Source: Polytrichum commune (taxonomy: Eukaryota > Streptophyta > Polytrichopsida > Polytrichales > Polytrichaceae). From it: a stretch of 64,000 bases of DNA. The stretch is taken from positions 32,640,440 through 32,704,439 of the forward strand of contig OX485807.1 in the NCBI GenBank assembly GCA_950295325.1, given 5' to 3'. Position 1 is the stretch's first letter. The number at the start of each line of letters is the position of its first letter. Of the stretch, positions 1,768-25,454 are shown in pieces. A model generated the notes under the pieces. That model saw only the letters and a program-made list of their open reading frames with translations. It ran no database searches and had not been told where the DNA came from. A program made the translations under genes and the position numbers.

Positions 1768-3024
1768 AAGACGAACGCGCGTCCCAAAAAAACGTTTTAA
1801 GCATACGTCTAGGTTGTTCACTAATGTAAACAATACATGGACAAAGAGGAGAACACTCGTTAGTCGTCCAAGAGGGCCCTGCTGTTCGGACCAGCGCCTG
1901 TCCACATACAACCGACGACGAAATCAGAAATCCGAGAACGCCACATGCATTTACGAACGCGCGTTCGTGACCTCAGTAACTTCTCCATGTACATCCGGCG
2001 GCCTTCGAGATCCCTCAAATGAGAGCACCCTGAGGAATATCGGTTTTGTAGGTCAAAGTACCATGTTGACTTAGGAACCTGCGCGATATACTATCACAAG
2101 AGAACACTTGTCCATACGCACAAAATTAGCAAATCTGCAGATGATGCATGAATCAACTCCAACAATATTTTGAACACTGAGCACCTCCATATTGTGAATT
2201 TTATTATGTTGACTTTTGCGTACCTACCCATTTACGAACGGACGTTCGTAAATGGGTGCGACCCCGTGTTCACATCCTTCACGGACGAGCGATGAGCATA
2301 TTTTTCTTGTTATTCTGTGTTCGTAAATTACTGCCATACTGATGTGCATGAATGAAGATGTGTTGCTGGATGCGTAGACAATAATGACATGTATTTACGA
2401 ACGAACGTTCGTAAATTCCCGACCATCAGGTAACAATAGATACGGGTCAAATAAGTATGTATGATCCTCGAAGGCATATTTACGAACGCACGTTCGTAAA
2501 TGACTGTCATGGATTAAGTGCATGTGACTAACCATATGAGTACCTCAATCCAGAACATGCTCTCATGTGGGATTTACGAACGCACGTTCATAAATTACCG
2601 ACCAACAGGTACCAATAGACAAGGGTCAAATATGTATGTATGAAACTCGAAGGCATATTTACGAACGCACGTTCGTAAATAAATGCCATGGATGATGTGC
2701 ATGTGACTATCCATGAGTAGCTCAATCCAAAACATGATCTCCTGTGGGATTTACGAACGCACGTTCGTAAATTACCGACCATCAGGTACCAATAGATAAG
2801 GGTCAAATATGTCTGCATGGTCCTCGAAGGCATATTTACGAACGCACGTTCGTAAATAACTGAGATGGATTACGTGCATGTGACTATCCATATGAGTAGC
2901 CCAATCCAGAACATGCTCTCATGTGGAATTTACGAACGCGCGTTCGTAAATCCTTGCCATGTCCAGGTCCGAATCGTTTGTCTAAACCTGAAGCTCTTCA
3001 TCTTTACGAACGTGCGTTCGTAAA
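1768..3024. repeat. Left cluster of palindromes (arm TTTACGAACG)
   Basis: Ten copies of a 22-bp palindrome lie here: arm TTTACGAACG, a 2-bp spacer, inverted arm CGTTCGTAAA. They are at 1950, 2231, 2394, 2479, 2573, 2658, 2750, 2835, 2929 and 3003. Spacers are CG, GA, AA, CA, CA, CA, CA, CA, CG and TG. Most arms are perfect; those at 1950 and 2573 carry mismatches. The copy at 2231 extends to 15-bp arms (2226-2257). Degenerate pieces occur at 1768-1785 and about 2316-2328. The cluster lies between the start of the leftward gene and the intergenic DNA. Confidence 0.9.
2394..2950. repeat. ~178-bp tandem repeat, about three copies, two palindromes per unit
   Basis: A unit of about 178 bp repeats head to tail roughly three times. 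Each unit holds two palindromes separated by two different spacer sequences, one containing 'ACCGACCATCAGGTAC' and 'GGGTCAAATA', the other 'GTGCATGTGACTA' and 'CTCAATCCAGAACATG'. Units differ by scattered substitutions and short gaps, so the array is not brand new. Palindromes are better conserved between units than the spacers. Confidence 0.85.
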
Positions 3025-3414
3025 GTTCCGGTATTTACGGCGGTATATGCGGTAGGTACAGCCTGTACTGTACCTGGGTGGTGTAGGGTTGGCGCACACG
3101 AAATGGCTTGAGCGCGTTCGGTGAGGTCTGTAGAGCGCACACTTGCATGTGCCGCTGAAAAGAGCTTTGTTGTGGGGGGAAGAGCTTTAAGTACTTCACC
3201 CCGCTGGTTCAAAATCCCTTGGATGCTCTTTAAAAAGCAGATTCCCGCCGCCTTCTTTGACCTAACAATCTCCCATTCCATCCATGCGGAATTATATAAA
3301 TAGCATTGTCATGTATGGAACATGCCTTGCATGCACGCCAACATATTGAAAATATATAAATCGGTTGCACACCTTAGTTGTGACCAAGGTCTCATCGAAA
3401 TATATGTATATACG

Positions 3415-3448
<34 letters not shown>

Positions 3449-3563
3449 ATGTCTAAATATGGAGATGGTTAACATTGAATATTTAATGATTTGCGACTAA
3501 GGTATGAAGTCCAAGTTAATTGACAATTGATGCCTAATAAAGTTATGAATGTCGAAGTCATAG

Positions 3564-3606
<43 letters not shown>

Positions 3607-4587
3607 CAATGAGGTCAGAGTGGCTAAGAAACATGTTGCGGACGCCCCTAAAATTATAGGTATCATATGTTTCACATCAAAAAATGACCGTAATATGGTC
3701 ACCAAGTGCATGAATACAACTAAAAAATCGGGTTAATCCATAATGGCTTGCACTAGGGTAGATTGAGGACACTATGAACTAATTATACCTAATAATATAT
3801 GTAAGTTAGGTCTTCTTTCAAATGGTATCTAGGTGTGAAAATAAGGAATTAAAATGGCATGAGTAGGAAGGATTAATCAATTTGTAATGCTGCATAGTAT
3901 GATAGCGTAATGATCATTGAGACTTGAAACCATACTAGTTACCGTAACGTTGAATCATAGTTACAATTATTATGTGTTTGACGTCCTATTGGAAATTGAA
4001 TTTTCGTCCACTTGTTGTAAGGGTACGGATACACATTGGTTAAATGTTTATTAGATCATTGGTGATATTTATAGTGGAATGCATTGTTCGATTGTTAGTT
4101 TAAGTTGACACATGATTAAATGAGTTGAGGTCCTATTGGAAATAGACTTTTAGGGTTTGGGGAAATGCACTATTAATTTGGAATGGTGCATACAATAGTA
4201 TGTACTTACAATTAATATATGTTTTGCATCCTATGAGAAGGATGTGCATCATCATAGCTTAAAGTGTTGATATAAATTGAAGTCTTAAGACATGCATGTT
4301 ATTATAATAAGATCGTGGATTGTGTGATGAAATTTCACTCAGAACTATTAAGGTGAAAGTGGGAATATTTGAAATTTCACTTATCACTTAAACCAAAGTT
4401 TTATCTCAAATCTATTAATTTGGAATGTGAAATTGACAATTGCCATCATTATCAATTATTATAGTTGTTATGAACGGAATTAAGCATTCTCCATCCAACC
4501 AACATTGGTAGACCAATTTGACCTGCCCTCAGAAAACAACATGGCCACATATAAGAAAGGTTGGTAAAATAAAAAGATGCAGGGATG
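3025..4587. other. Non-coding AT-rich DNA with microsatellites
   Basis: No convincing gene. A TA microsatellite lies at about 3400-3442 and a compound TA/CA microsatellite at about 3563-3612. No full palindrome of the left-cluster type was found between 3025 and 6337. Short open frames here are explained by low-complexity DNA. Confidence 0.7.
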
Positions 4588-4668
4588 TAGGGTTTAGGGT
4601 TTGCGGTTAGGGTTTAGGGTAAGGGTTTGGGGGTAGGGTTTAGGGGTTTAGGGTTTGTGAAAGTTGTG
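4588..4668 (+). repeat. Interstitial telomere-like repeat (TTTAGGG type)
   Basis: Degenerate copies of TTTAGGG, the usual plant telomere unit, repeat irregularly for about 80 bp, with variants such as GGTTAGGG and GGTTTGGGGG. A few more degenerate units follow to about 4700. Confidence 0.8.
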
Positions 4669-4699
4669 TATGTGGTATTTGGGTTTAGGTTTTAGATTG

Positions 4700-5236
4700 T
4701 TACTAGGATACATTACACACACAAACAATATTGACTCCTCAAAAACCCTTGTAATTGCATTAACTTCATTCATCGCAAGCTCGTAGTTGATGCTAGCAAA
4801 ATAGTTGACCACTCCAGAAATGCATTAGTTCAAGCTAACACCTAATATTAGAACTTGAATTGACATCCTATCGTATAGCAACTCTGCGCAATCTCATATT
4901 ATTATGAATTCTTTTTTGCATGTAATATTTATTTGAGGAACCATTGAATTAATTGAAAGATATCTAGCTCTTACATAAACTATATTTTAAAACACCATAT
5001 ATATATCTTTGGGGGTGGATTCTACATTGACAACCTAGGGAGTGACATGCATTGTTTATTACGAATTAACTGAGCATATTTTCCTAAAATATGTTTACAA
5101 GGAATCCAAATGTAGAGGTACTAAGGAAATAAAACGAGTAAAATTCATGTATTTGAACTAAGCTTGTCAAGTTAATGCCTTAAACGCGTCCATTACATAT
5201 AAATATGTCAAAGCATGAGAATAACATGAAGGGTTC
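4700..5236. other. AT-rich intergenic DNA, nothing recognised
   Basis: Low-GC sequence with no long open frame. A TATAAATA string at about 5198-5205 could be a TATA box for the rightward gene, but its distance from the GC-rich leader makes this uncertain. Confidence 0.4.
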
Positions 5237-5330
5237 CAATATACAACCATCTCCCATCTCCCATCGCATCCCATCCCATCCCATCCCTTCCCATCACCTC
5301 CCATACCATCCCATCCCATCTCTCTCCCAA
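5237..5330. repeat. CCCATC-type low-complexity repeat
   Basis: Irregular repeats of CCCAT and CCCATC units run for about 90 bp, just upstream of the putative promoter and leader of the rightward gene. Confidence 0.8.
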
Positions 5331-5480
5331 CCCTAGCCAGTGGAGTTGTGCCACGTGGCAGGTGCTGGGAAACCCTAGCGGCGCACCTACCTCCCCGCGC
5401 CCCTTCCTCTTCTCCTCATTTGTCATTTCGAGGAGAGGAGGAGCGGAGCGTTTAGAGAGCGAAGCTCTTGCTTTTTTTAG
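5331..5480 (+). promoter_or_regulatory. Candidate promoter/leader of the ParB-MTase-FCP1 gene
   Basis: This short GC-rich island in AT-rich DNA has a G-box core CACGTG at 5352-5357, a telo-box-like AAACCCTA at 5370-5377, and then a pyrimidine-rich stretch (CTACCTCCCC, CCCCTTCCTCTTCTCCTC) of the kind found around plant transcription starts. It is upstream of, and on the same strand as, the large gene. The promoter role is inference; no start site is visible. Confidence 0.4.
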
Positions 5481-5529
5481 TCTTGAAGTTTTAAATTAGT
5501 TTTGTTGCAAGTTTTGAGAGATTTCAGAT

Positions 5530-5860
5530 TGAGTGCTTGTGTGAAAGCTTTTGAGTTTGTGAAAGCTTTCATTGTGAAAGCTTGTGAGTTTGTGAAAGCT
5601 TTCAGTGTGAGAGTTTGTGAGTTTCAAAAGCTTGAGAGCTTGAGTAGGAAAGCTTCAGAGTTTCGGATTGAGAGCTTGAGGGTGATCTTTAGAAGCTTGA
5701 GAGTTTAAGGAAGCTTGAGAGTTGAAGCTTGAGAGTTTAAGGAAGCTTCAGAAGTGAAGCTTGAGAGTTTAGGGAAGCTTCAGAAGTGAAGCTTGAGAGT
5801 TTAGGGAAGCTTGAGAGTTTAGGGTTTGCTTAAGAGTTCAGAAGCTTGAGAGCTACAAGG
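5530..5860 (+). repeat. AAGCTTGAGAGTTT-rich repetitive leader
   Basis: The motif AAGCTTGAGAGTTTA and close variants (AAGCTTCAGAAGTG, GAAAGCTTTCA) occur about 15 times in ~330 bp. The result is a purine-rich, nearly stop-free tract with many AAGCTT sites. It lies between the candidate promoter and the small leader exon, so it is probably transcribed as 5' UTR or 5' intron. An open frame at 5502-5708 is explained by this repeat. Confidence 0.75.
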
Positions 5861-6222
5861 TTGTGAGTTTTGTGTACATAGGAGTATACTAGGGTTTGTA
5901 TATAAGCTGTGAAGGCTTGAGGTCTGCATTAGAGAGTTATCTGAGTGTGCATTTGAAAGGCAATTGAGTGTGCAGTTGTGAGGATTTCTGGGATTTTCAG
6001 AAAGAGAAGAAGCAGGGATTGCAGTGTGTAGCATTTCAATGTAATTTGTTATCCTTTCCAACTCCTCTCACATTCTGAAAATGTTGCTTCTTGAATTCAA
6101 TTTCTTTTGTTACATGCAATGTGAACTATCACTCTTTTCTTCATGTTTCATTCTGCATCTCATTCTGCATCTCAATTGCTTTATGATTGAAGAATTGCAT
6201 CATTCTGACCAAAATTTTGCAG

Positions 6223-6250
6223 GCACGGCTGCAAGCAGAGTAGCTAATAA
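6223..6250 (+). other. Candidate 5'-UTR exon of the ParB-MTase-FCP1 gene
   Basis: A good acceptor (AAATTTTGCAG) precedes position 6223, and a consensus-like donor (AA then GTGAGT) follows 6250. The segment itself contains stop codons, so it would be untranslated. The next acceptor, TCTGTTGCAG, ends at 6997 directly before the ATG at 6998, which would give a 747-bp intron in the leader. Confidence 0.45.
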
Positions 6251-6337
6251 GTGAGTTATATACATATACGTATATATACGTATTCGTATATACACGAATA
6301 CATATATGTACGGACAGGGGATCCCAAAACCATCACA

Positions 6338-6969
6338 TATACGAACGCTCGTTCGTAAATGGACATACACTGCATACCCACCTCCATTTACGAACGCTCG
6401 TTCGTAAATGGACATACACTGCATACCGAACCTCCATTTACGAACGTGCGTTCGTAAATACGCACTCCACGTTCTTTGAAATGATCTATATTTACGAACG
6501 CACGTTCGTAAATATATTCAAAATATCACTCAGAAGGAACCTTAACTTAAATATGAACCTCTATGAATATCTAAAGAACAAATACAATTTTGCGAACACC
6601 AATAAGACAAATCACATGTACTTACGAAAGATAAATCAACCAAATATCCGAAAAGATAGACCAAATGGACATACTTACGAACGCACGTTCGTAAATGAAT
6701 CCAAACCTATAAAACCTATATCTTTTACGAACGATCGTTCGTAAAAATAACCAAATATATTACAAACACATTCATGACGAGTAGTCTCTTTGATCTTCAT
6801 ATCTTTTACGAACGCTCGTTCGTAAACTCAATACTAAAAATTTATATGATCTTGCAACCCCTCATTTACGAGCGAACGTTCGTAAATATAATTACATCAA
6901 TTGCAAAGACGCATTAACACTGCGTAGTCTGTGGGATATGCATGTCACTTACGAACGTTCGTTCGTAAA
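6338..6969. repeat. Second palindrome cluster, in the leader intron
   Basis: Nine copies of the palindrome begin at 6338, 6387, 6437, 6491, 6674, 6724, 6805, 6865 and 6948, with spacers CT, CT, TG, CA, CA, AT, CT, AA and TT. Arms are perfect at 6387, 6437, 6491, 6724 and 6805. Copies at 6387 and 6491 have arms extended with flank-specific sequence (CCATTT/AAATGG and TATATTT/AAATATA). All lie inside the predicted leader intron (6251-6997). Confidence 0.9.
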
Positions 6970-6997: not shown

Positions 6998-8293
6998 ATG
7001 GCAAGATCAAGCAGAAGCGCCATTGAGATGTTCGCGGTGAAGGTCGATGGCCTCCCAGAGTCGGTGTTAGACGATAACGGCAACGACAACTATGTCCCCA
7101 AGGAAGACTTCATGGGGGAGTGGACGGCACTGCCAGAGAAGATCGGGGACGGCCTCTTCTGCATGCGCTTCACCTACGAGCTGGAGACAAGACCGGACCA
7201 GCCCGAATAGTGGGTTCAAATGAAGACGTGGGAGATAGAGTCCATAGAGGCCCAGGGGGAGTATGTAATTCTGGACATGAAGAACAAGAAGGATCATATC
7301 AACCTCTTGTTGCATTTCCAGAAAAATACCTTCTCCTACCAATACGCCACCAATAACGTAGCGGAAGATGCCAAGCACTTCGACCTGGACGGCCTCTTCT
7401 CCAAATATGCGTTGAGCCCATACTGGACGGCAAGGAAATTGACCGCCCTTGCATTGAACATCTCCAAATACAACAGTGTGGTCACAGAGGCAAACAAGAA
7501 GAAGAAGAGCCCCAGGAAACCATCCACATCAGGGGCAGGAGGATCTAGAAGTGCACCCAGGCCTGTGCCTTCCGCTAGCAGGGCGACGGAGGGCCCCAGT
7601 AGACACTCCACGCCATCGAAGAGGACAAGGGAGGAGATGGAGAAATCGGGAGTAACGGAGACCGCAGAGGTGACCTCGCCTGTCGTAATGCCCACCCCCT
7701 TGAAAAAGGGTGAGAACCCTGACGCTGTGAAGGCCACGAGGATCCTTCGAGACTTCAACAACTACTCGAAGGATTGCTGGCCCATGGGACGCCACTTCAC
7801 ATTCAACGTGGACTGCTTCAAGTGCGAGATGTCCCCCAACAAATGGGTGGTTCGCTCTCGCGAAAGCGGTGGTGTGAAGTGGCAGATAAATAATCTAATG
7901 AACAACGTCAAGTGGGACAGGCAGACCGTCTGCGTCATGCCGAAGGGGCTGACATCCCGTCCGACGGAGAAGGACTGGCCACGGATCCAGAATGGAGAGT
8001 TCTGGATCATAGACGGCCAACACAGCTTGGAGGCGTCCCAAATAATTCTCAAGGACGACAACTTCCAGCATGAGCTGAAGGAGGACTTGCGCTACTGGAA
8101 GGCGTTCTTGGTGTGGTCGGACGATTGGGACAAGCTGCGGAAGATATCCACCTTCCTCAACTCCGGCAACAAAATCAAGGCCTTCGAGGCGTCGTGGGCA
8201 GCCAACATAGTGGCTGCAAGGGACGTCTGGGTCGCCCACGGGTGCCCCCCTAAAGAAAGGGAGAACGCGAAGACGCCGTCTCCACAATGGAAG
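6998..8293 (+). CDS. Exon 1: N-terminal region with ParB/DGQHR-like domain
   Basis: Codons 1-432. The start ATG at 6998 directly follows a splice-like acceptor. Residues 1-75 are interrupted by TAG at 7208-7210, after which the same frame continues 'WVQMKTWE'. If the TAG is real, translation could begin at the Met at 7220. Residues ~165-225 are basic and Ser/Pro-rich. From about 250 the sequence resembles ParB/DGQHR-type domains: 'GRHFTFNVDCFKCEM', then 'GEFWIIDGQHSLEAS' with the DGQH signature at 339-342, then a helix-rich segment ending 'GNKIKAFEASWAANI'. Ordinary ParB-family members have DGQHR or similar; here the fifth residue is Ser. Confidence 0.65.
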
Positions 8294-11200
8294 GTGAGTT
8301 TACGAACGAACGTTCGTAAATATCTTTGACATTCAAATTTTCAAGTTCTTTGACATTCAAACTTACGAACGTGCGTTCGTATTTTGTGCGTTACTGATGT
8401 TTTTCTTGCTGCAGGCATTCTGCGACGCGATGGTGGACAAGTTCTCCTCCATCGACATGAAGTCTACAACAACCAAGTCTGTCCTGGAGCTCAAGGGTGA
8501 GCTCCGCCTCATCTGTTGCAACAGGGACACTTGGGAGTTGTGGACACAATTTTTTGATGCGCACAGCTCGGGCGATCTGGTCAACCCCGACACCGAGGAG
8601 AAGTACAGCGCGGAGAAGACCGGGGAGGCCCCTCCACTACTGAGGGAGTTCTTCAGGTCCCTTCAAGGGTTAACAGAGTCCGAGTTGCAGAGGTGCGCGG
8701 TGCATCTTCTTGGGAACACTGTGGGAAGAACCATCCCATACCCGAAGATATTTTTGAAGAGGCCAAGACACAAGCCCGGCACGTATTCCATCAAGGAATG
8801 GTGCGAACACCGCAAGCTGAAGACTGCTGCAATGAGGGAGTTGAGTGCCCTAATACCAGAGTACGCACTCATCCTAGCCGACGGGGACATTAATTGGGCC
8901 AGCTGGAAGATGTTCAAGGTCGACTACAACATCTCCGGACCCTCAATGCGTTGTCTTGTCAAGGAGCACGCCTCCATTTTGAAGCAGAAGGGGAACAAGA
9001 GGACAAAGAAAACCGAGACGGATCCCCAGGAGGTGGAGCAATACAGAAGCTTTTTGACGCGGAAGAGGTTGGCCACATTCGAAGGAGTGGCCAGATTTTG
9101 TCTGTTGACAAAAGGAGTGGAGAGGGTGACATTTTCCAAGTGGGACCGGACCATGAGCAGGGCCGAGGTGAGGGAGGATCGACGGGGGTGCCCATTTGCC
9201 CTGATCGATTTCAGGGGGATCCCCGGTGCGTCGAGGCAGGGGGGGAAGGACATACCTTTCTACGACCCTTTCATGGCCAAGTTCAAGGAGCACAAGTCTC
9301 CGGACATGAGGGAGCCTCACGTTTGGCTGTGGATAGTCGAGCAGGAGAAGCTCTCTGCTGTAGTCGACCTGTACGAGAAGTCGATCAAATTCGAGTACAA
9401 CATCTTCCACAGCACTTACGTGCCCGCCAAGACGGAAGGGATCGTGGCCATCAACGAGGCCAGGGGGAACAAACAGGTGGGGGCGGTCAGCCTCGTCTTC
9501 TTGACGTACAACGCGCTGCGGAATGGGCGAGCCCCTGTCAAGGCGAACACTACGTTCAAGAAGATCTACAGCATCCCCCATCCCCCTCCCAAGGATCTGC
9601 TGCAGGAGACCTTGTACACTGTCTTCCCGGCGATGGAACTCAGGTTGGAGTTCTACGTCTCCGTTTTGCAGAGCGTGGCAATAAGCGGAGAGACCGTGTA
9701 CAACGTTTGTGGCGGCAGCAAGTTCATGTACGCTGCGATGGTAAGCTCTCCAACTAATATTTACGAACGCTCGTTCGTAAAGTTCACCTCAACTTGTCTT
9801 GGGTTTGATGACATTGTTTCTCGTCGTTGATGTTTACGAACGCACGTTCGTATTTTCTAACGTATTTGCTTGAATCTCAGATGTTGGGGCTGGTCGTCAA
9901 CAGCTTCATTGAAGCCATCGACGAGGAGGACTTCCACGTGCACAGGGCGAAGGCCTCCACGATGGACCTGGAGGACATGTCCCTCCCGAGGACGGACATC
10001 AACATGCCCGTCGACGAAGGCATGCCCGCCATGGAGACGGACGACGACGAGCCCGCGCCCTCCTACAACGTCGAGGCGATCCTCCGATCCTTGGACGTCA
10101 CTCCTCTCCGCATTTTGGCGCCGTCGGGAAATCCATCCGACGTGCAAGGGACTCCGGGTGGATACACGGGGTCGTCGGCGGGGACAACCCAAGATGTCCT
10201 CCCCGCGAGAACGTCTGGAGCGGAGGCATTCGGCACTCCCGGGGGATGCTCGACATCCGTGTCGCCCAGGCCGATCGTGGTTCCCAAGATGGAGAACCTC
10301 GACCTTCTGGACCAACGGTCCCGACCGACGTTGGACCAGTACCGCAACACGAGGCGGAGGATGAAGAAGACCCCCTACGTGGAGCTGCCTCCGGGGGCAA
10401 TCATCGAGGTCTCCGATGAGGACGAGGGCGACATGGAGATCATGGTCGAGCTGGGGGTAGACTTTGACAAAAACAAGAGGGTCAAAGAGGAGGCGTTGTC
10501 CGTCGCCGAGCTTAACGCCAAGCTCGAGCAAAAGATGAAGGAGGACATGGCGAAGGCGGCAGAGGAGAATGCCAAGAAAATGTTCGCAATTCAGGAGGAG
10601 CTGAGGCAGTCGAACGAGAAGACGGACGCCATCCTCGCCATGCTCCAGCGTATGCAGAGCTTCTCGGCGCCCCCCCAGCCGGCCTACCCCTTCACTGGAG
10701 GATACCCCTCCCAATCCCCTCCACCGGGCATGTTCACCGGAGGGCCTTCCCGCCAGCAGGCGCCCCACCCCACGCCTGTTGGCACTCCTCCGCCACCAGA
10801 GGTTCCCTCGACCACCTCCCACGATGCTGTGGCGGCGGCCATCCAGGAGGACGAGGATTTACGAACGCGCGTTCATGAATCTTCAGGTCCTCCAGTCCTC
10901 ACCCCTCCCCCTTCAAGGGTAGGACTGCCCTCATACACCGATGCATCGTCTTTCACCGTCGTCCCCAGGGTAGTAGACAGACATGGCGATGACTCTGCGC
11001 GACACACTGACATGGTCATTGTGGAGGACACGCAGGGGAGCCCCAATGACGCACCAGGGGTGCATGGGATGGACGTGGAAGAAACCCATGCGGCGTGGAT
11101 GGAGGATGTCAGGATGGACGCGCTCGACCTGGGCGCCGAGGAAGAAGACGCGCTGCGCATCCAGGCGACACAGGCCTCTCAACCGGAGCGTGAGGCAGAG

Positions 11201-12700
11201 GCCATGGAGACAGAGGCGGCTGCAGCTGTGGAGGTTACGAACGCGCGTTCGTTAATCGTTGAGGAGGGACCTGCTGCTCGGTCCAGCGCCGCTACCCCTC
11301 CCCCCGATGACGAGGTAACTCTCCTCTGAGAATACCATTTTTTAACGAACGCGCGTTCGTAACCTCTCTAACATCGCGATGTTTTTCTCTTCATCGACAT
11401 CCAGTGGCCTTGCGAGAGCCCTCTTCAGCGGTCCCCCTTAGGGCCGAACAGTTTTGTAGGACACGGCATCATTTTGCCTTAGGAAAATGTGATAGACTAT
11501 CACGTGAGAAATGTAAATATTCAACGGATTAATATATGAGCCTATGTTATCTGCATCGCGTTGCTTCAAATTCTCTGCCCTCGACCCCTTCTCGTATGTT
11601 GTATATGTTGATGAGATTATGTTCATTCTTGCATACCCACCTCATTCGCGAACGCTCGTTCGTGAAAGGTTGCGACCCACTGTCCACCTCATTCGCGAAC
11701 GACCGCTCGTAAATGTACGTGTAGCCGCGCTCACGAACGAGCGCTCGTAAATGATGCGCACCGCCCCCGCAGCCTTCATTCACGAACGCTCGTTCGCAAG
11801 TGTGCCCTTGAGCACATTTTCCTTGCACTCTCCTCACTTCCTCGTCTTTCCCCATAATGCACCGTCTTCATTTTCTACGCAAAATTTCATTATTGGATCA
11901 TAGAATTAAACTAGTCGAGTTGTTCATCACAGGACCCCCCGGAGATTGGTCGCAACCCCTCTACCAGTGGACCTCCCACCCGGAACAAACCTTTCATCGT
12001 TTTTGACCTCAACGGGGTGTTGTGTCACACCCAACACATCCCAAGGGTCCCCACGCGTCCCTTCCGTCACCCCGACGAAAGGGACTACGACGGCGAGCTC
12101 GACACCCTCATTAACCGCAAGGCTGTCCGCGCCCGTCCCGGCTTGCGTGACTTCCTTCGCGAGGTGGTCGAGTTCGCTCACGTCATTGTGTGGAGCTCCA
12201 TGGTCATGGAGAACACCGAGCCCATCGTGCACTTCTTGTTCCGCGATCTCCCGAGCCCTTGCCTCGTCCTCGGCCAAGAGGACTGCGACGAGCTGCTCGA
12301 TGAGAAAGGTCAACCGGTGCCCAAGTTTGGCGGTCGGGGCGGAGGACAACAGTTCCTCAAGGTCCTCCGCTCGAGACTCTGGCGAGGCGTCCCCCGTCTG
12401 CAAGGGACGCCGCACGGGTGGTGGCCGACTCCAGAGAACACCGTCCTCATCGACGACAGCCCCACCAAGAGTGTCTTGAACCCCCCGGGCAACGTCATCT
12501 TCCCGGACACTTGGACCGGCGATAGGCAAGACACATTTTTGGTCGATAGGCTAGCCCCCTACCTTAGAAGGCTCATGCTCCACGCCGGTAGCATCCCATT
12601 TTTTGTTAGGTCCAACCCCTTCGGCAATGCGGCGCTAAGCCCCCGCGATAATGTATTCAAGAGCATCATGAGGCTCGCCAAACTCAATAAATTGATTTGA
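6998..12700 (+). CDS. ParB-like / DNA methyltransferase-like / FCP1-like fusion protein (four exons)
   Basis: Predicted coding exons are 6998-8293, 8415-9740, 9881-11314 and 11933-12700. Every junction is phase 0 with GT-AG ends (GTGAGT, GTAAGC and GTAACT donors; CTGCAG, TCTCAG and CACAG acceptors). The joined frame gives about 1607 residues, interrupted only by TAG at codon 71. In order it shows a ParB/DGQHR-like domain (DGQHS at 339-343), a DNA-methyltransferase-like domain (about 690-890), a coiled coil (about 1075-1133), a long Pro/acidic disordered linker, and an FCP1-like HAD domain (about 1370-1600). Codons are much more GC-rich than the flanking DNA. ParB plus methyltransferase fusions are known in bacterial and phage mobile DNA; adding an FCP1 domain in a plant gene is unfamiliar to me. 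The whole gene sits among palindromic repeats, suggesting a mobile element gene rather than a host gene. Confidence 0.65.
7208..7210 (+). other. In-frame TAG at codon 71 of the fusion gene
   Basis: The frame before (from 6998) and after (from 7211) is the same, and both sides read as plausible protein (ends 'RPDQPE', resumes 'WVQMKTWE'). The triplet is one C-to-T change from CAG (Gln). In plants CAG is a CHG methylation context, where deamination gives exactly this change. This may mark a decaying copy. Confidence 0.7.
8294..8414 (+). repeat. Intron 1 (121 bp) carrying two palindromes
   Basis: GTGAGT donor and CTGCAG acceptor. One perfect palindrome (8299-8320, spacer AA) starts on the last base of the donor consensus. 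A second, imperfect one (8362-8383, spacer TG) ends about 30 bp before the acceptor. A short direct repeat (TCTTTGACATTCAAA) separates them. The palindromes make up over a third of the intron. Confidence 0.75.
8415..9740 (+). CDS. Exon 2: DNA methyltransferase-like domain
   Basis: Codons 433-874. After a helical region (433-690) the order resembles an N6/N4 amino-methyltransferase of the beta or MT-A70-like arrangement. 'FALIDFRGIP' (DFRG at 697-700) stands where a (D/N)PP(Y/W) catalytic motif is expected. 'HVWLWIVEQEKLSAVVDLYEKS' (from 734) resembles the following 'HxFLW...AxxxxxxWGF' segment. 'LLQETLYTVFP...SGETVYNVCGGSKFMYAAM' (motif at 862-869) matches the SAM-binding 'GDxVLDxFGGSGS' region. 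Both catalytic and SAM motifs are degenerate, so activity is doubtful. The domain continues across the exon junction into 'MLGLVVNSFIEAI'. Confidence 0.55.
9741..9880 (+). repeat. Intron 2 (140 bp) carrying two palindromes
   Basis: GTAAGC donor and TCTCAG acceptor. A perfect-arm palindrome lies at 9760-9781 (spacer CT), 19 bp after the donor. An imperfect one at 9833-9854 (spacer CA, last arm bases ATT) ends 26 bp before the acceptor. Placement mirrors intron 1. Confidence 0.75.
9881..11314 (+). CDS. Exon 3: end of MTase-like fold, coiled coil and disordered linker
   Basis: Codons 875-1352. It opens with 'MLGLVVNSFIEAIDEEDF', which fits the helix and acidic strand after a SAM-binding motif I. 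The rest is acidic and Pro/Ser-rich. A Lys/Glu/Ala-rich segment at about 1075-1133 ('VAELNAKLEQKMKEDMAKAA' and on) should form a coiled coil. It is followed by Pro/Gly-rich sequence ('QPAYPFTGGYPSQSPPPGMF'). Two degenerate palindromes lie inside the exon at 10858-10879 and 11234-11255 and are translated ('LRTRVHE', 'VTNARSL'). The donor GAG/GTAACT is at 11314/11315. No known domain recognised in the linker. Confidence 0.55.
11315..11932 (+). repeat. Intron 3 (618 bp) with five diverged palindromes
   Basis: Palindromes begin at 11342 (spacer CG), 11645 (CT), 11692 (AC), 11730 (AG) and 11779 (CT). They are more diverged than those on the left: arms start TTCGCG, CTCACG or TTCACG instead of TTTACG. 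Four lie close together (11645-11800). Splice ends are GTAACT and CATCACAG, and phase 0 is kept on both sides. Confidence 0.7.
11933..12700 (+). CDS. Exon 4: FCP1-like HAD phosphatase domain
   Basis: Codons 1353-1607, ending with TGA at 12698-12700. It carries the three HAD/FCP1 (NIF) signatures: motif I 'FIVFDLNGVL' (Asp 1377; the usual second Asp, the general acid, is Asn 1379), motif II 'VIVWSSM' (about 1436-1442), and motif III 'VLIDDSPTKS' (Asp 1526 and Asp 1527). FCP1-like enzymes classically remove phosphate from the RNA polymerase II C-terminal tail or related substrates. With Asn at the second motif I position, catalysis may be weak or lost. The domain is of usual size, and the frame is clean and GC-rich. 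Confidence 0.75.
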   Translation, partial: DPPEIGRNPSTSGPPTRNKPFIVFDLNGVLCHTQHIPRVPTRPFRHPDERDYDGELDTLINRKAVRARPGLRDFLREVVEFAHVIVWSSMVMENTEPIVHFLFRDLPSPCLVLGQEDCDELLDEKGQPVPKFGGRGGGQQFLKVLRSRLWRGVPRLQGTPHGWWPTPENTVLIDDSPTKSVLNPPGNVIFPDTWTGDRQDTFLVDRLAPYLRRLMLHAGSIPFFVRSNPFGNAALSPRDNVFKSIMRLAKLNKLI

Positions 12701-12811
12701 AATGCCTCCATGTCTTTGCTTGTATCATGTGGTTCACATTTACTAATGTTTGCTTCGTTTTTGGATGTCTTTTGTTGTTGTGATTGTTGTTGTTGTTGTT
12801 CTTGCCCATAG

Positions 12812-13339
12812 TCTGCCCCCATATGCGACGCCCCTGTGGTCGACGGCCCTTCCCGTCCCCTCTCGCCCCCTGCCTCCCCTTCCCGCGACGTCACGGGCTT
12901 CCAAATGCCATCCCTCTACCAGTTCTCGGCGGTCGACTCGGCCTCGGCCGTGGATTACTCCCGCGACGTCGGCATCGACGACGGCGTCGTCAACAGCCCG
13001 CCCCCACCACTTGTCGCCCGCGCCTACGCCCCGTCGCCCTCCCCCCTCTCCAAGGAGAAACGGACGCTCGTTCGTTTGGGACACCTCTCGCCCTCGAGGG
13101 ACGACGCCGTCGCTCGTCGCGGGCCAAGCCGGCGTCTCCGCATGGAAGGCCCCCGTTGCCACACCTCCCCCGCCGACTCCGTTCCTCCCCCCGCAACGTC
13201 CTCCGCGATCGTGGGCCCTCCACGCCTCGACTCCCCCCCGCCATCCAACATAATTGCAATAGTTCCATCGGCTCCGGATGCTCCCGTCGACGCCCCCCTC
13301 GTTCCCACCGTTCCCCGCATGGACGTCCCCAAAGCCAAG
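12812..13339 (+). CDS. Candidate extra or alternative exon, Pro/Ser-rich
   Basis: An acceptor-like CTTGCCCATAG after a T/G-rich tract precedes position 12812, and the following frame is open, GC-rich and phase 0 ('SAPICDAPVVDGPSRPL'). It could be an alternative last part of the preceding gene (same splice phase as exon 4) or the start of another one. A donor-like AAG/GTGCCC follows 13339. No known domain; composition resembles the disordered linker of exon 3. A degenerate palindrome lies inside (about 13057-13078). Confidence 0.3.
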
Positions 13340-13491
13340 GTGCCCTCCTCAACCCTGAACCCCTTTCTCGCTTTTGCTTTCCTTGTCTTCCGTTTGCGTG
13401 CCGTTCTCTTTACGAGCGCCCATCCCAAACCGCCCTCATTATTTTCCCCACTCCATTCCTATTCTTATCTTCCTATGACGTTGTTTCGCAG

Positions 13492-13782
13492 GTGGTTACC
13501 CGCTCGCTTGGTGCCCGGCCCTCCTCCACGTCCTCCTTGGATAGGCACGCCTCAAGGCCGCATCTTCCGAGTCCGATCGTTGTCTGGCCCTCCGGAGAAG
13601 CGCAAGACGTTCCCTTTCGCAAACACCCTCGCATTCTACTTATAATACCACCTCTTACAATTCGGGAGCGCGTCCTGAAACATGCAAGAACGACACATAT
13701 TCCTGTCCAGGCAACACACAAGGATACAGTCGTGGGCCTGAGATTTTTAGAGCCATGGAGGCCGCCAAAAAAAAGGGCTTAG
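13492..13782 (+). CDS. Candidate terminal exon following the Pro/Ser-rich exon
   Basis: A T-rich stretch ending TTTCGCAG at 13491 looks like an acceptor, and the intron it would close (13340-13491) contains half a palindrome (TTTACGAGCG at about 13410). The frame 'VVTRSLGARPSSTSSLDRH' runs 96 codons to TAG at 13780-13782. No domain recognised. Confidence 0.25.
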   Translation: MVTRSLGARPSSTSSLDRHASRPHLPSPIVVWPSGEAQDVPFRKHPRILLIIPPLTIRERVLKHARTTHIPVQATHKDTVVGLRFLEPWRPPKKRA

Positions 13783-14405
13783 CCGCAAAAAAAAATAATG
13801 GGTCGGACTAGTGTGACGTCTAGAAGCGTACTAGTGGGACGGACTCCCTAAATGGGCTTAGGTGTAGAACATATTTAAGTGCTTACTTTCTATGCTATTC
13901 CAAGTTACTCAAGACATTGATGGTATTTCCATTATAATTGTATTTCAATCCCAATTAATTCATTCAACTTCCATTCATTCTTCGCACCTTCCCTTCCATT
14001 CATAACGAGTTGTGATTTCATACGCAACTATTTTCATGTATGCCTCACATTTTTGTTCACTTCCATGCCTTTATGTATAATAATAGTAGCATACCATTAT
14101 ACATATGGAATTTTTAGTCGTCATTACTGGTCCAATTTTGAAAGGTGCATCCTTATATAGTCTCATAATCAACAAAAAGTCTCCAAATACCGAATATAGT
14201 GTTATGTGCATTAACTTCTTCTTTGACATATGTGTCTCCTTCTTGATCCATGAAATCTTATTTGCTTCTCGTCATCCTTAAAATTATATTTCTTCCCTTA
14301 GTTTTTGAAAAGGAATTATTACAATAATATTGGTAACACATTCTTCATTAAGATCACATTGATCATTGTGTTCTTTGATATCACTTCTATTCTATTGCGA
14401 CTTTT
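13783..14405. other. AT-rich DNA, nothing recognised
   Basis: Composition falls sharply from the GC-rich coding region to AT-rich DNA at about 13.8 kb. No palindromes and no open frame of interest. This may be where the left mobile unit ends, but no terminal repeat was identified. Confidence 0.4.
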
Positions 14406-18059: not shown

Positions 18060-19157
18060 CAGGGCTGTTTTTTCACAAAGTTTTTACCCGTCCACGTCCC
18101 AAAACCTCGAATTGAAAGGCAAAAAAAATTGCAACCCGTCCCAAAACCGGTAATATTAAAACTAACCCGTCCATGGAAAGGTTGAAGAAAAAACAACCCG
18201 TCCCAAAACCGGTAATTTCTAAACCAACCCGTCCATGAAAAGGTTAAAGGAAAAAATAAATCGATAAAGATAACCCAATGCATGCAAGCTCTTCAGTCCC
18301 AATCTCTATCCAGCAAATGATGATGAGGGAACTCGTATTACTGAAGAGTGGTTGGAAAGGTTGTTTGTGAAGTTTCGGACTTCTGAAGAAGAACAAGATC
18401 GGTGTCGGGGTGAGTGTTTGGAGATGGTGGAGACCATGAGAGAGATGATCCCAAATAAGTCTTTATTTGAAGCTTGGGAGTTTGCATGTACCACTCCAGA
18501 GTGGTCAATTAATTGGCCTGGTTTGAGTAACTTGTGGAGGAGAGTTATGGTGATTCCAGTGAGCACTGCAATATGTGAGAGGGGTTTTTCTAAACAAAAC
18601 CTAATCAAAAGTCATCTACGTACCTGTTTGAAGTTGGAAACTTTGGATGCTTTGATGCGCATTTCATGTGCAAATATTCCAGTTGAAAACATCGATCGGA
18701 ATGCAGTGATGCTTGTTTGGAGAAACATGAAGGATAGGAGAATTCATCCACTTCTTTGAAGGGTAAGTAGCTCTTTATTTTAAATATACTAATTCTTATT
18801 CAATTACTAAGTTTACCTTCAATTGTAATCTTTGACATTATGTTAAAAAGGTTCTAAATTTTGTGGTTGATGAATTTATGTATGCAGGTGAATCAAGCAC
18901 TTCAAGATTGATAGTTTGATTGGGTATTAGTGGTTTGATTGCATTATGCTTATATTCACATGTCATATATGACATAACGTAATTGATATTTCTACCATTT
19001 TTTTTAATTTAAAAAATGTTATTTTTAGAACCCGTCCAAAGTGAATTTGACACGTCCCAAAACCGGTTCATTTTCTAAGAACCCGTCCACTGGAAATGTT
19101 TTTTTTTTATGAACATGTCCCTAGACATGTTAGGGTCCTTGTGAAAAAACACCCCTG
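18060..19157 (+). mobile_element. hAT-derived element, 1098 bp, with 8-bp target duplication
   Basis: The terminal inverted repeat CAGGGCTGTTTTTTCACAA (right end inverse CAGGGGTGTTTTTTCACAA) is flanked by a perfect 8-bp direct repeat CCCATGAT (18052-18059 and 19158-19165). CAG-starting ends and 8-bp duplications are hallmarks of hAT elements. Subterminal 'AACCCGTCC' and 'CCCAAAACCGG' motifs repeat on both sides, as expected for transposase binding sites. It encodes only a C-terminal transposase fragment. Confidence 0.88.
18301..18759 (+). pseudogene. hAT transposase C-terminal fragment
   Basis: The frame runs from about 18301 ('NLYPANDDEGTRITEEWLER') to TGA at 18759. It holds the conserved hAT dimerisation-region signature 'LWRRVMVIPVSTAICERGFS' followed by 'LRTCLKLETLDALMRI'. 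The zinc finger and the catalytic N-terminal two thirds are missing. It is inside the element 18060-19157 and in the same orientation. The frame is intact, so the deletion may be relatively recent or the domain could still be expressed. Confidence 0.75.
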
Positions 19158-24344: not shown

Positions 24345-25454
24345 CAGGGCATAAAATTGACACCCTGGGGGGTGTATTTTGCTTCCTAGAGTGTCCTAGG
24401 ACACCCAAAATCTCAAACAGGGTGTCCCCGAGGACACCCAAAAATCCTACAAGGGTGTCCTTTTTACACCCAAAAAAAATTCAGGGTGTCCCCTGTACTT
24501 GTAGGGCCTATCAGCGGATACCAAATTCGTGGCACAATTTTTGGACATTTCTAGAGGTGGTGAGATCCATTTTCAAGACTCTACAGGAGTGGTGCATTCA
24601 CATATATTGCATTATGCACCATTGCCTCATGCAATTGAGTTTGGTGGTGATGGTACCCTCCATGGGTGCAAGGTGATTGCACATGCCTATGTGGTTAAGG
24701 TGATAGAATCATTGCAGCAATGATTTCCTGATTTGAAGCTCTTCAATGCAACTAAGCTATTTAGCCCTGTCTGTTTTTCAACAGACTTGACACTTCTTCA
24801 TCGAAATGCTCGTTTATGGCTTCAGAGTTTCATTGACCACTTCTGCACTAATGGAGGGAATCTTTTTGATGAGCGTGGTTTAAAATCAGAGCTTCGAGGT
24901 TTTTTAGATACACTTCATATTTCATGTGGTGGTCTTAAAATGCACCAAGCTTGGATGGTTTATTCTTCCAATTTGGACTATGTTGGAAGATATCCTCATA
25001 TGACAAAGTTGTGGCAAGCTGTTCTTGTAATTCCTGCTAGTACAACTTCTTGTGAGAGAGGATTTTCTACTCAAAATCATATTAAATCTACTTTACGGTG
25101 TAGTTTGGTATTAGAGACTTTGGAAGCACAAATGAGAGTTGCAATGGCAAAAATCCCCATAGAGGCCATTGACTTTGAACAAGTATGGGTAAAGTGGTGT
25201 GCTATGAAAGGCCGCCGCTTGTAGGTTTGATTTGCATTGCAAGTTATGATATGTAGTGGTTTTTTTGATTTTTAATTGAGATTTTGAAATGATATTATAT
25301 ATTTTTCAAAATTGTACCTATTTTGACAAAAAAAAAAATTTAAGAGAAATTTATGAGGACACTCAAAAATTGGAGCAGGGTGTCCTTGGGACACCCAAAA
25401 TTTGGGACAGGGTGTCCCCTGGAAATTTGGCTAGGGTGTCAAATTTATGGCCTG
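24345..25454 (+). mobile_element. hAT-derived element, 1110 bp, nested in repeat R
   Basis: Inverted ends CAGGGCATAAAATTGACACC and CAGGCCATAAATTTGACACC (the right end read inversely) are flanked by the perfect 8-bp duplication GTTGAGAT (24337-24344 and 25455-25462). Subterminal 'GGTGTCC...ACACCC' words recur many times at both ends. Different TIR sequence from the element at 18060, so a second hAT family. Confidence 0.9.
24511..25224 (+). pseudogene. hAT transposase C-terminal fragment with in-frame TGA
   Basis: One frame runs from about 24511 ('SADTKFVAQFLDISRGGEIH') to TAG at 25224, broken by TGA at 24721-24723, probably from CGA. It includes the hAT C-terminal signature 'LWQAVLVIPASTTSCERGFS' and 'LVLETLEAQMRVAMAKIP'. 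The N-terminal catalytic part is absent. Confidence 0.75.

Follow-up and report, generated by a model that had tools for sequence, protein, structure and literature searches.

The stretch of DNA analysed here, hereafter the window, comprises 64,000 nucleotides from the moss Polytrichum commune (assembly GCA_950295325.1, contig OX485807.1, positions 32,640,440 to 32,704,439 of the forward strand). Its first 14,203 positions belong to a 16.1-kb DNA transposon of the DUF7869-transposase family, and a four-exon gene at 6998–12700 is the accessory open reading frame of that transposon (ORF2) and no host gene. A preliminary description of the window had presented it as a plant gene fusing ParB-like, DNA methyltransferase-like and FCP1-like domains, in an arrangement recalling mobile DNA; its position within a high-copy transposon bears out the hunch about mobile DNA and contradicts the assignment to the host. 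ORF2 is a real, selected and unusual transposon accessory gene, for which the proposed fusion is right in outline and two of the three domain names are unproven. The most interesting feature, missing from the preliminary description, is the pairing of ORF2 with palindromes: in the loci read, each ORF2 clade has one palindrome type.

Exon 1 of ORF2 (6998–8293) encodes the N-terminal region and a DGQH (ParB/DGQHR-like) region, and exon 2 (8415–9740) carries IDFR, at the place of motif IV, and the motif I-like GETVYNVCGGSKF of a methyltransferase-like region. Exon 3 (9881–11314) holds the end of that region, an acidic/helical stretch and a proline-rich linker, and exon 4 (11933–12700) holds an FCP1/NIF-type HAD domain, with DLNG replacing DxDx[TV], and DDSP. 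Introns 1 (GT/AG), 2 and 3 occupy 8294–8414, 9741–9880 and 11315–11932; all of these features lie on the forward strand. The exons and GT/AG borders of the earlier model, four phase-0 exons with about 1607 residues, stood, but the frame of the window copy is stopped at codon 71 by a TAG (7208–7210) that had been counted as a residue. This codon is CAG in copy B of the element (C4) and in copy C (C3), and ORF2 of copy B (C4:4672402) has 1,607 residues without a stop; the four-exon model holds for the gene family, of which the window carries a broken copy. The step from CAG to TAG replaces C by T at a CHG site, the product expected when a methylated cytosine is deaminated. The sequence signatures named earlier were recovered: DGQH lies at residue 339, the CGGS region appears as GGSK at residue 865, with the order seen in beta-class amino-methyltransferases, and DLNG (residue 1377) and DDSP both lie inside the significant FCP1/NIF domain. 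The proposed coiled coil agrees with a Glu/Lys-rich stretch recognized by eye in exon 3, with a sub-threshold match to HAUS-augmin3 (E=0.0011). Within exon 4 the first methionine is residue 90 and the DLNG motif is at 25; because no methionine precedes the motif, the domain needs an upstream exon, which supports the join of exons 3 and 4.

The transposon begins 1.9 kb to the left of the window, at C5:32638532, and ends at window position 14203. The window copy (copy A) and copy B (C4:4663324) are 99.4% identical across 16,117 bp, and their flanks differ, placing them at unrelated sites. The element has inverted termini, AACACTATATTCG...CGAATATAGTGTT, and a 4-bp target duplication, ATGT, flanks the window copy; a 4-bp duplication was also seen by eye in seven of ten further copies (absent from L008, L016 and L022), and copy B has none. 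The genome contains 122 exact matches to the 38-bp left end, and exon 1 has 434 candidate matches in the same genome, 40 of which were scored, all with 99–100% identity. A short form of the element, of 8.3 kb, was considered and rejected: copy C ends at 5878, probably through an insertion of ~14 kb, on the far side of which lie a left terminus (C3:7021108) and the transposase (C3:7022115). According to the available part of PMC12730594, members of the CMCT clade (CACTA/Chapaev and others) have C(2)C and H(3-4)H between the second D and the last E, CA..TG termini and duplications of 2–5 bp; the termini and 4-bp duplication of the present element roughly fit, and the single CxxC noticed is upstream of the DUF7869 part.

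Diverged copies were found through the DGQH pattern written in synonymous codons, which occurs at 119 genomic places. Ten were fetched, four of which (L042–L045) are decayed; the other six (L036–L041) keep the exon order, with exons about 62–96% alike, although no exon 4 turned up in L041. When these six were laid out by exon with the window copy and copy B, intron 1 had the donor GT in 8/8 and the acceptor AG in 7/8 (the exception being L036), and both GT and AG were present in 8/8 for intron 2 and in 7/7 for intron 3. The ratio of non-synonymous to synonymous substitution (dN/dS) was 0.03–0.26 for 37 of the 38 exon pairs compared, with saturation in the remaining one; the exon 1 values are rough, its synonymous sites being close to saturation. 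These comparisons, with stop codons skipped, used copy B together with L036, L037, L038 and L041 for exon 1, L036, L037, L038, L039 and L041 for exon 2, L036 and L037 for exon 3, and L036–L039 for exon 4; the decayed copies were left out, as was L040, though its exons 3 and 4 are open. ORF2 is conserved and under purifying selection across diverged copies. Synonymous divergence between subfamilies, for 6998–12700 against L036–L041, is greater in exons 1–2 (0.5–2.7) than in exon 4 (0.13–0.75), a gap that may point to a mosaic origin or to elements having recombined.

The identity of exon 4 as an FCP1/NIF domain is certain (PF03031, E=3.2e-16, 59.8 bits versus a cut-off of 21.8). The catalytic motif I of HAD phosphatases is DxDx[TV]; in ORF2 the second catalytic Asp is replaced by Asn, so that this pattern is absent, and the motif reads DLNGVL in both families of the element (the second is described below) and DLNRVL in L036. 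Among eight other NIF places read in the genome, the nearest relatives (L069–L071) carry DVNGLL or DVDGLL, share about 30% identity with the ORF2 domain and are host-gene-like. The domain may derive from this DVNG/DLNG host subclass. At C2:43149594–43151611, two NIF-like genes are neighbours, one with DVNGLL and the other with DVDGLL, so that the subclass includes both Asp and Asn forms of motif I.

The two other domain names have not reached this standing. DGQH is kept in 9/9 aligned rows, six of family 1 and three of family 2. The profiles DGQHR (TIGR03187; E=0.39, 10.4 bits versus a cut-off of 58.85) and GmrSD_N (PF03235; E=0.053, 14.1 bits versus 33.2), which we take to be ParB-superfamily profiles, matched three and two of four members, respectively; both matches are sub-threshold, and a ParB fold is not demonstrated. 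Nor is a methyltransferase fold: no methyltransferase profile matched the ORF2 exons in Pfam and NCBIfam searches, and support from profile–profile comparison is weak. The motif-IV place reads IDF[RK] in 10/10 aligned rows and is followed by the motif I-like GETVYNVCGGSKF or GDCIFNVFGGTKP. When a profile of both families was compared by hhalign with 11 amino-methyltransferases of E. coli and phages, the score was 23.0 (P=0.021, probability only 2%) over 25 columns, in which GETVYNVCGGS is aligned to the motif I GDIVLDPFAGS; the controls scored lower, with a maximum of 20.1 among 100 column shuffles, 13.4 for the reversed profile and 17.1 for the FCP1 profile. Family 1 alone gave a weak 21.4 (P=0.034), with at most 18.3 in ten shuffles, 18.6 for the FCP1 profile and 18.4 for the ParB-like part. 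A methyltransferase fold, perhaps catalytically altered, is thus probable but unproven. Exons 1–3 had no significant match in Pfam or NCBIfam or, for the parts of exons 1 and 2 searched along with part of exon 4, in PHROGs; N-SET in two and FecR_C in one of six exon-2 members, and HAUS-augmin3 and DUF4230 in exon 3, are profile noise. The best hit of the ParB-like and methyltransferase-like parts in the PDB, searched by sequence and by alignment, was a Fas inhibitory molecule (E=0.064). No useful lead came from 50,697 phage records searched by tblastn with the ParB-like part, or from viral contigs searched with alignments A1 and A2 and two peptide patterns for each.

The window part of the element contains 25 dyads with a 14-bp core, nearly always CGAACGNNCGTTCG inside TTTACGAACGNNCGTTCGTAAA or a near variant. 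Nine lie at 1954–3021, at the 5′ end of the transposase frame and upstream of it, and eight at 6342–6966, within the 660 bp that precede ORF2. The others are within ORF2 and occur in all three introns: two in intron 1 (8303 and 8366), two in intron 2 (9764 and 9837), three in intron 3 (11346, 11649 and 11783) and one, intact and coding, in exon 3 (11238). None was found in the central spacer (3101–6300) or in the 49.8 kb past the element (14,207–64,000); within the window the palindromes are confined to the element. The spacer is AT-rich and poor in CpG (0.50), like the DNA outside the element. Chance can be rejected as the origin of the palindromes, as strict 16-mers number 23 in the window versus 0 in 100 shuffles, and the 20-bp form has 3,737 places in the genome versus 0 for the reversed control. 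The decayed copies L042, L043 and L044 have lost all palindromes and L045 retains three, the losses being at least partly due to changes of CG to TG or CA. One further locus, the family-1 derivative L057 (C1:638500–648499), contains 34 palindromes in dense arrays, a left terminus, and fragments of the transposase and FCP1 domain, with no significant match to ORF2 exons 1–3; its right end lies outside the stretch read. The observed/expected ratio of CpG is 0.86–1.01 in eight preserved copies and 0.51–0.86 in four decayed copies, against 0.47 for the part of the window outside the element; higher CpG in preserved copies is expected if these escape CG methylation.

A second family was reached by the NIF search. 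In its loci L060–L062, the identity of ORF2 to family 1 is 33–35, 35–36, 29–30 and 43–44% for exons 1 to 4, respectively. A family-2 copy at C1:609.5–629.5 kb has the family-1 termini, with a 29-bp perfect inverted repeat and the duplication AAGT, and pieces of the family-2 transposase are 58, 66 and 85% alike to family 1. The palindrome is another one, TTTGGGTCGNNCGACCCAAA, with 17, 15 and 18 sites in L060, L061 and L062 and none of the family-1 type; conversely, the window, L003, L057 and the 12 family-1 loci examined all lack the family-2 type. When 7-bp dyads separated by 2 bp were sought blindly, L060–L062 gave solely the TTTGGGTCGNNCGACCCAAA type, and the window stretch gave the family-1 type 14 times and two other dyads once each. 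Four further family-2 copies, L076, L077, L078 (degraded) and L079, carry 12, 9, 1 and 19 family-2 sites, again with none of the family-1 type, and genome-wide the family-2 type has 9,731 places (control 0). Its placement matches that of family 1: ahead of the transposase there are 17 units with a period of about 78 bp, further sites precede ORF2 or lie in introns, and exon 3 has two. L079 has 16 units, one per 32 bp. Both types have the core CGNNCG in common. No third palindrome class appeared at three other NIF places (L063, a family-1 remnant without palindromes; L064, without an ORF2 match; and L065, a family-1 locus with 12 sites) or at a further four DGQH variants, each of them belonging to family 2, among the 100 listed of 328 variants.

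On balance, we favour the reading that ORF2 is a sequence-specific accessory protein that recognizes the palindromes of its own family and most likely keeps the element unsilenced and/or activates its genes. ORF2 would bind the palindromes upstream of both genes and in its own introns and, once bound, would most likely shield the element from host silencing by CG methylation and/or activate its two genes. In such a protein, the DNA-bound module would consist of the ParB-like/DGQH region and the methyltransferase-like region, the latter probably without its usual catalytic activity; chromatin or the RNA polymerase II machinery would be the target of the FCP1/NIF domain, which is related to NIF-like genes of the host. 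We infer that ORF2 rather than the transposase binds the palindromes because ORF2 and palindrome diverge together, with the termini conserved and the transposase much less changed; the anti-silencing outcome and the roles of the individual domains are proposed more weakly. A more elaborate version, which we advance only tentatively and regard as doubtful, is that the fusion of ParB-like, pseudo-methyltransferase and FCP1 parts loads onto parS-like palindrome arrays, spreads, and keeps the element unmethylated and transcribed, with co-evolution of protein and palindrome such that each family controls only itself; this would constitute an undescribed class of plant-transposon proteins for site-specific control of the epigenome.

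Several observations weigh against the favoured reading. Two families represent only a single event of co-divergence, which linkage along the element could also explain. Copy B is the only one of the eight copies laid out by exon that is open throughout. The ParB-like matches are barely above noise, given that the unrelated Vac_ImportDeg (E=0.12) matched two of the same four members and DUF6551 one; [DNS]PP[YFWH] is absent from the 1,607 residues of copy B and from exons 1–2 of the family-2 locus L060; and AlphaFold2 on single sequences gave no usable fold for the ParB-like and methyltransferase-like parts (mean predicted local distance difference test, pLDDT, of 34.3 and 30.0). The 3,737 places of the 20-bp form were counted irrespective of elements, and some of those listed are solitary. 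As to methylation, the CpG ranges of preserved and decayed copies meet at 0.86, the spacer has its low value within the element, and high CpG could stem from recent amplification (youth) or coding constraint.

Among the alternatives, one makes ORF2 a catalytically active enzyme, guided by its ParB part, that would methylate the element's own palindromes at N6 of adenine or N4 of cytosine, as has been suggested for algal transposon accessory proteins (PMC12477816, of which part was available). Beyond this precedent, it could draw on the order of DGQH, motif-IV place and motif I, as in beta-class amino-methyltransferases, and on the profile–profile score of 23.0 against at most 20.1 in shuffles; we consider it unlikely, as [DNS]PP[YFWH] is missing from the same two sequences with IDF[RK] in its place in all ten rows, the P value is only 0.021 over 25 columns, and Pfam yielded no methyltransferase match. 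That it is the transposase which binds the palindromes, with ORF2 serving an unrelated role such as DNA repair, replication or target choice, appears equally improbable: some transposases do bind internal repeats, and the palindromes also cluster upstream of the transposase, but 16 of the 25 window sites are upstream of or within ORF2, and the palindromes of the two families share only CGNNCG although the termini and the transposase pieces (58–85%) are conserved. Less credible still is that the palindromes are plain promoter or enhancer elements, or self-spreading short repeats, without an element-encoded partner, ORF2 being a passenger. The tandem arrays of fixed period (17 units about every 78 bp, and 16 every 32 bp in L079) do speak for expansion by local duplication, but family exclusivity in the loci read and purifying selection on ORF2 argue against such independence, as does L057, which retains sites though exons 1–3 are without significant match. 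Finally, a host gene captured or overrun by repeats, with the four-exon model as its transcript, was rejected as extremely improbable: although the FCP1/NIF domain has genomic relatives at about 30% identity, 40 near-identical exon 1 copies were scored, and copies A and B share 99.4% identity over 16.1 kb at unrelated places.

Two further genes or frames accompany ORF2 in the element. The 5′ part of the transposase gene occupies 1–1972 on the reverse strand, opposite to ORF2, with an open frame at 62–1972; its DUF7869 domain lies further left, outside the window, and was identified in L003 (9404–10000; PF25273, E=6e-35, 121 bits versus a cut-off of 26). No paper on DUF7869 turned up in a search of the open-access literature. 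An additional conserved frame on the forward strand at 12811–13645, either a separate small gene or an alternative exon, has homologues in both families: 92–95% identity in L036, L037 and L040, 50–76% in pieces in L038 and L039, and 41–42% over 86 amino acids in family 2. A shift of frame near residue 247 interrupts it in B, L036, L037 and L040, and Pfam gave no match. Beyond the element, the window contains two remnants of hAT-type transposase C-termini (Dimer_Tnp_hAT), at 18274–18756 and 24724–25221.

The preliminary description held that the gene may be undescribed. This has to be narrowed, as ParB plus methyltransferase has already been reported in eukaryotic transposons (PMC12477816, available part), whereas the fusion with FCP1 is still unfamiliar; neither this fusion nor the co-divergence of palindromes was found in listings and abstracts of the open-access literature on algal and eukaryotic ParB–methyltransferase proteins, moss genomes and anti-silencing, which is weak evidence of novelty. 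As far as the accessible text of PMC12477816 goes, the Ectocarpus transposon Sola1-1_Ec32 has a ParB plus methyltransferase accessory gene, green and red algal cases are cited there, and the protein is proposed to bind and mark the DNA of its own element. The moss element resembles Sola1-1_Ec32, as described in that text, in having a large accessory protein opposite the transposase in a large DNA transposon and in the order of a ParB-like region followed by an N4C/N6A methyltransferase-like region. By description, it differs from the algal systems in its DUF7869 transposase, its C-terminal FCP1/NIF domain, its clade-specific palindromic arrays and its lack of [DNS]PP[YFWH], and its host genome has LEAFY-type genes (SAM_LFY, four matches), taken here as a mark of streptophytes. 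With ParB–parS partition and with DGQHR/GmrSD_N proteins, ORF2 has in common the DGQH motif and clusters of dyad-symmetric sites, but its profile matches are sub-threshold, site recognition is only putative, and no partition partner was seen, none having been searched for. To FCP1/SCP/NIF HAD phosphatases (PF03031), and to the DVNG/DLNG subclass, it is related by significant domain homology, and it is distinguished by Asn for the second Asp and by fusion to a transposon protein.

Few sequence-specific transposon proteins that undo silencing are known. According to the part of PMC12730594 available, fungal DNA transposons carry TET/JBP dioxygenase genes; these are likewise transposon-borne accessory genes thought to counter methylation-based silencing, and ORF2, set apart by its domain content, is a different kind of protein. 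Should the favoured reading be true, ORF2 would represent a second, unrelated solution beside VANC of the Arabidopsis VANDAL elements, would provide a link to the algal ParB–methyltransferase proteins, and could offer a tool for targeting chromatin states to a 20-bp palindrome. One genome here contains two families with the same ends, related transposases, and different accessory proteins and palindromes, which makes co-evolution directly testable by swapping. In the available parts of PMC5735166 and PMC10398659, VANC targets are described from introns and from non-coding DNA upstream, as tandem arrays whose number of units rises and falls and which differ between related families. DUF1985 and DUF287, the VANC domains according to the former source, had no Pfam match in ORF2 (exons 1–2 at E<=10, exons 3–4 at E<=1). 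ORF2 differs from VANC in its unrelated transposase and palindromic motifs, and any demethylation by it is putative. The likeness lies in element-specific motifs in introns and upstream regions, their tandem expansion and their divergence between families, the ORF2 motifs being putative targets; by this analogy, the best reading is that ORF2 probably works in the manner of VANC anti-silencing.

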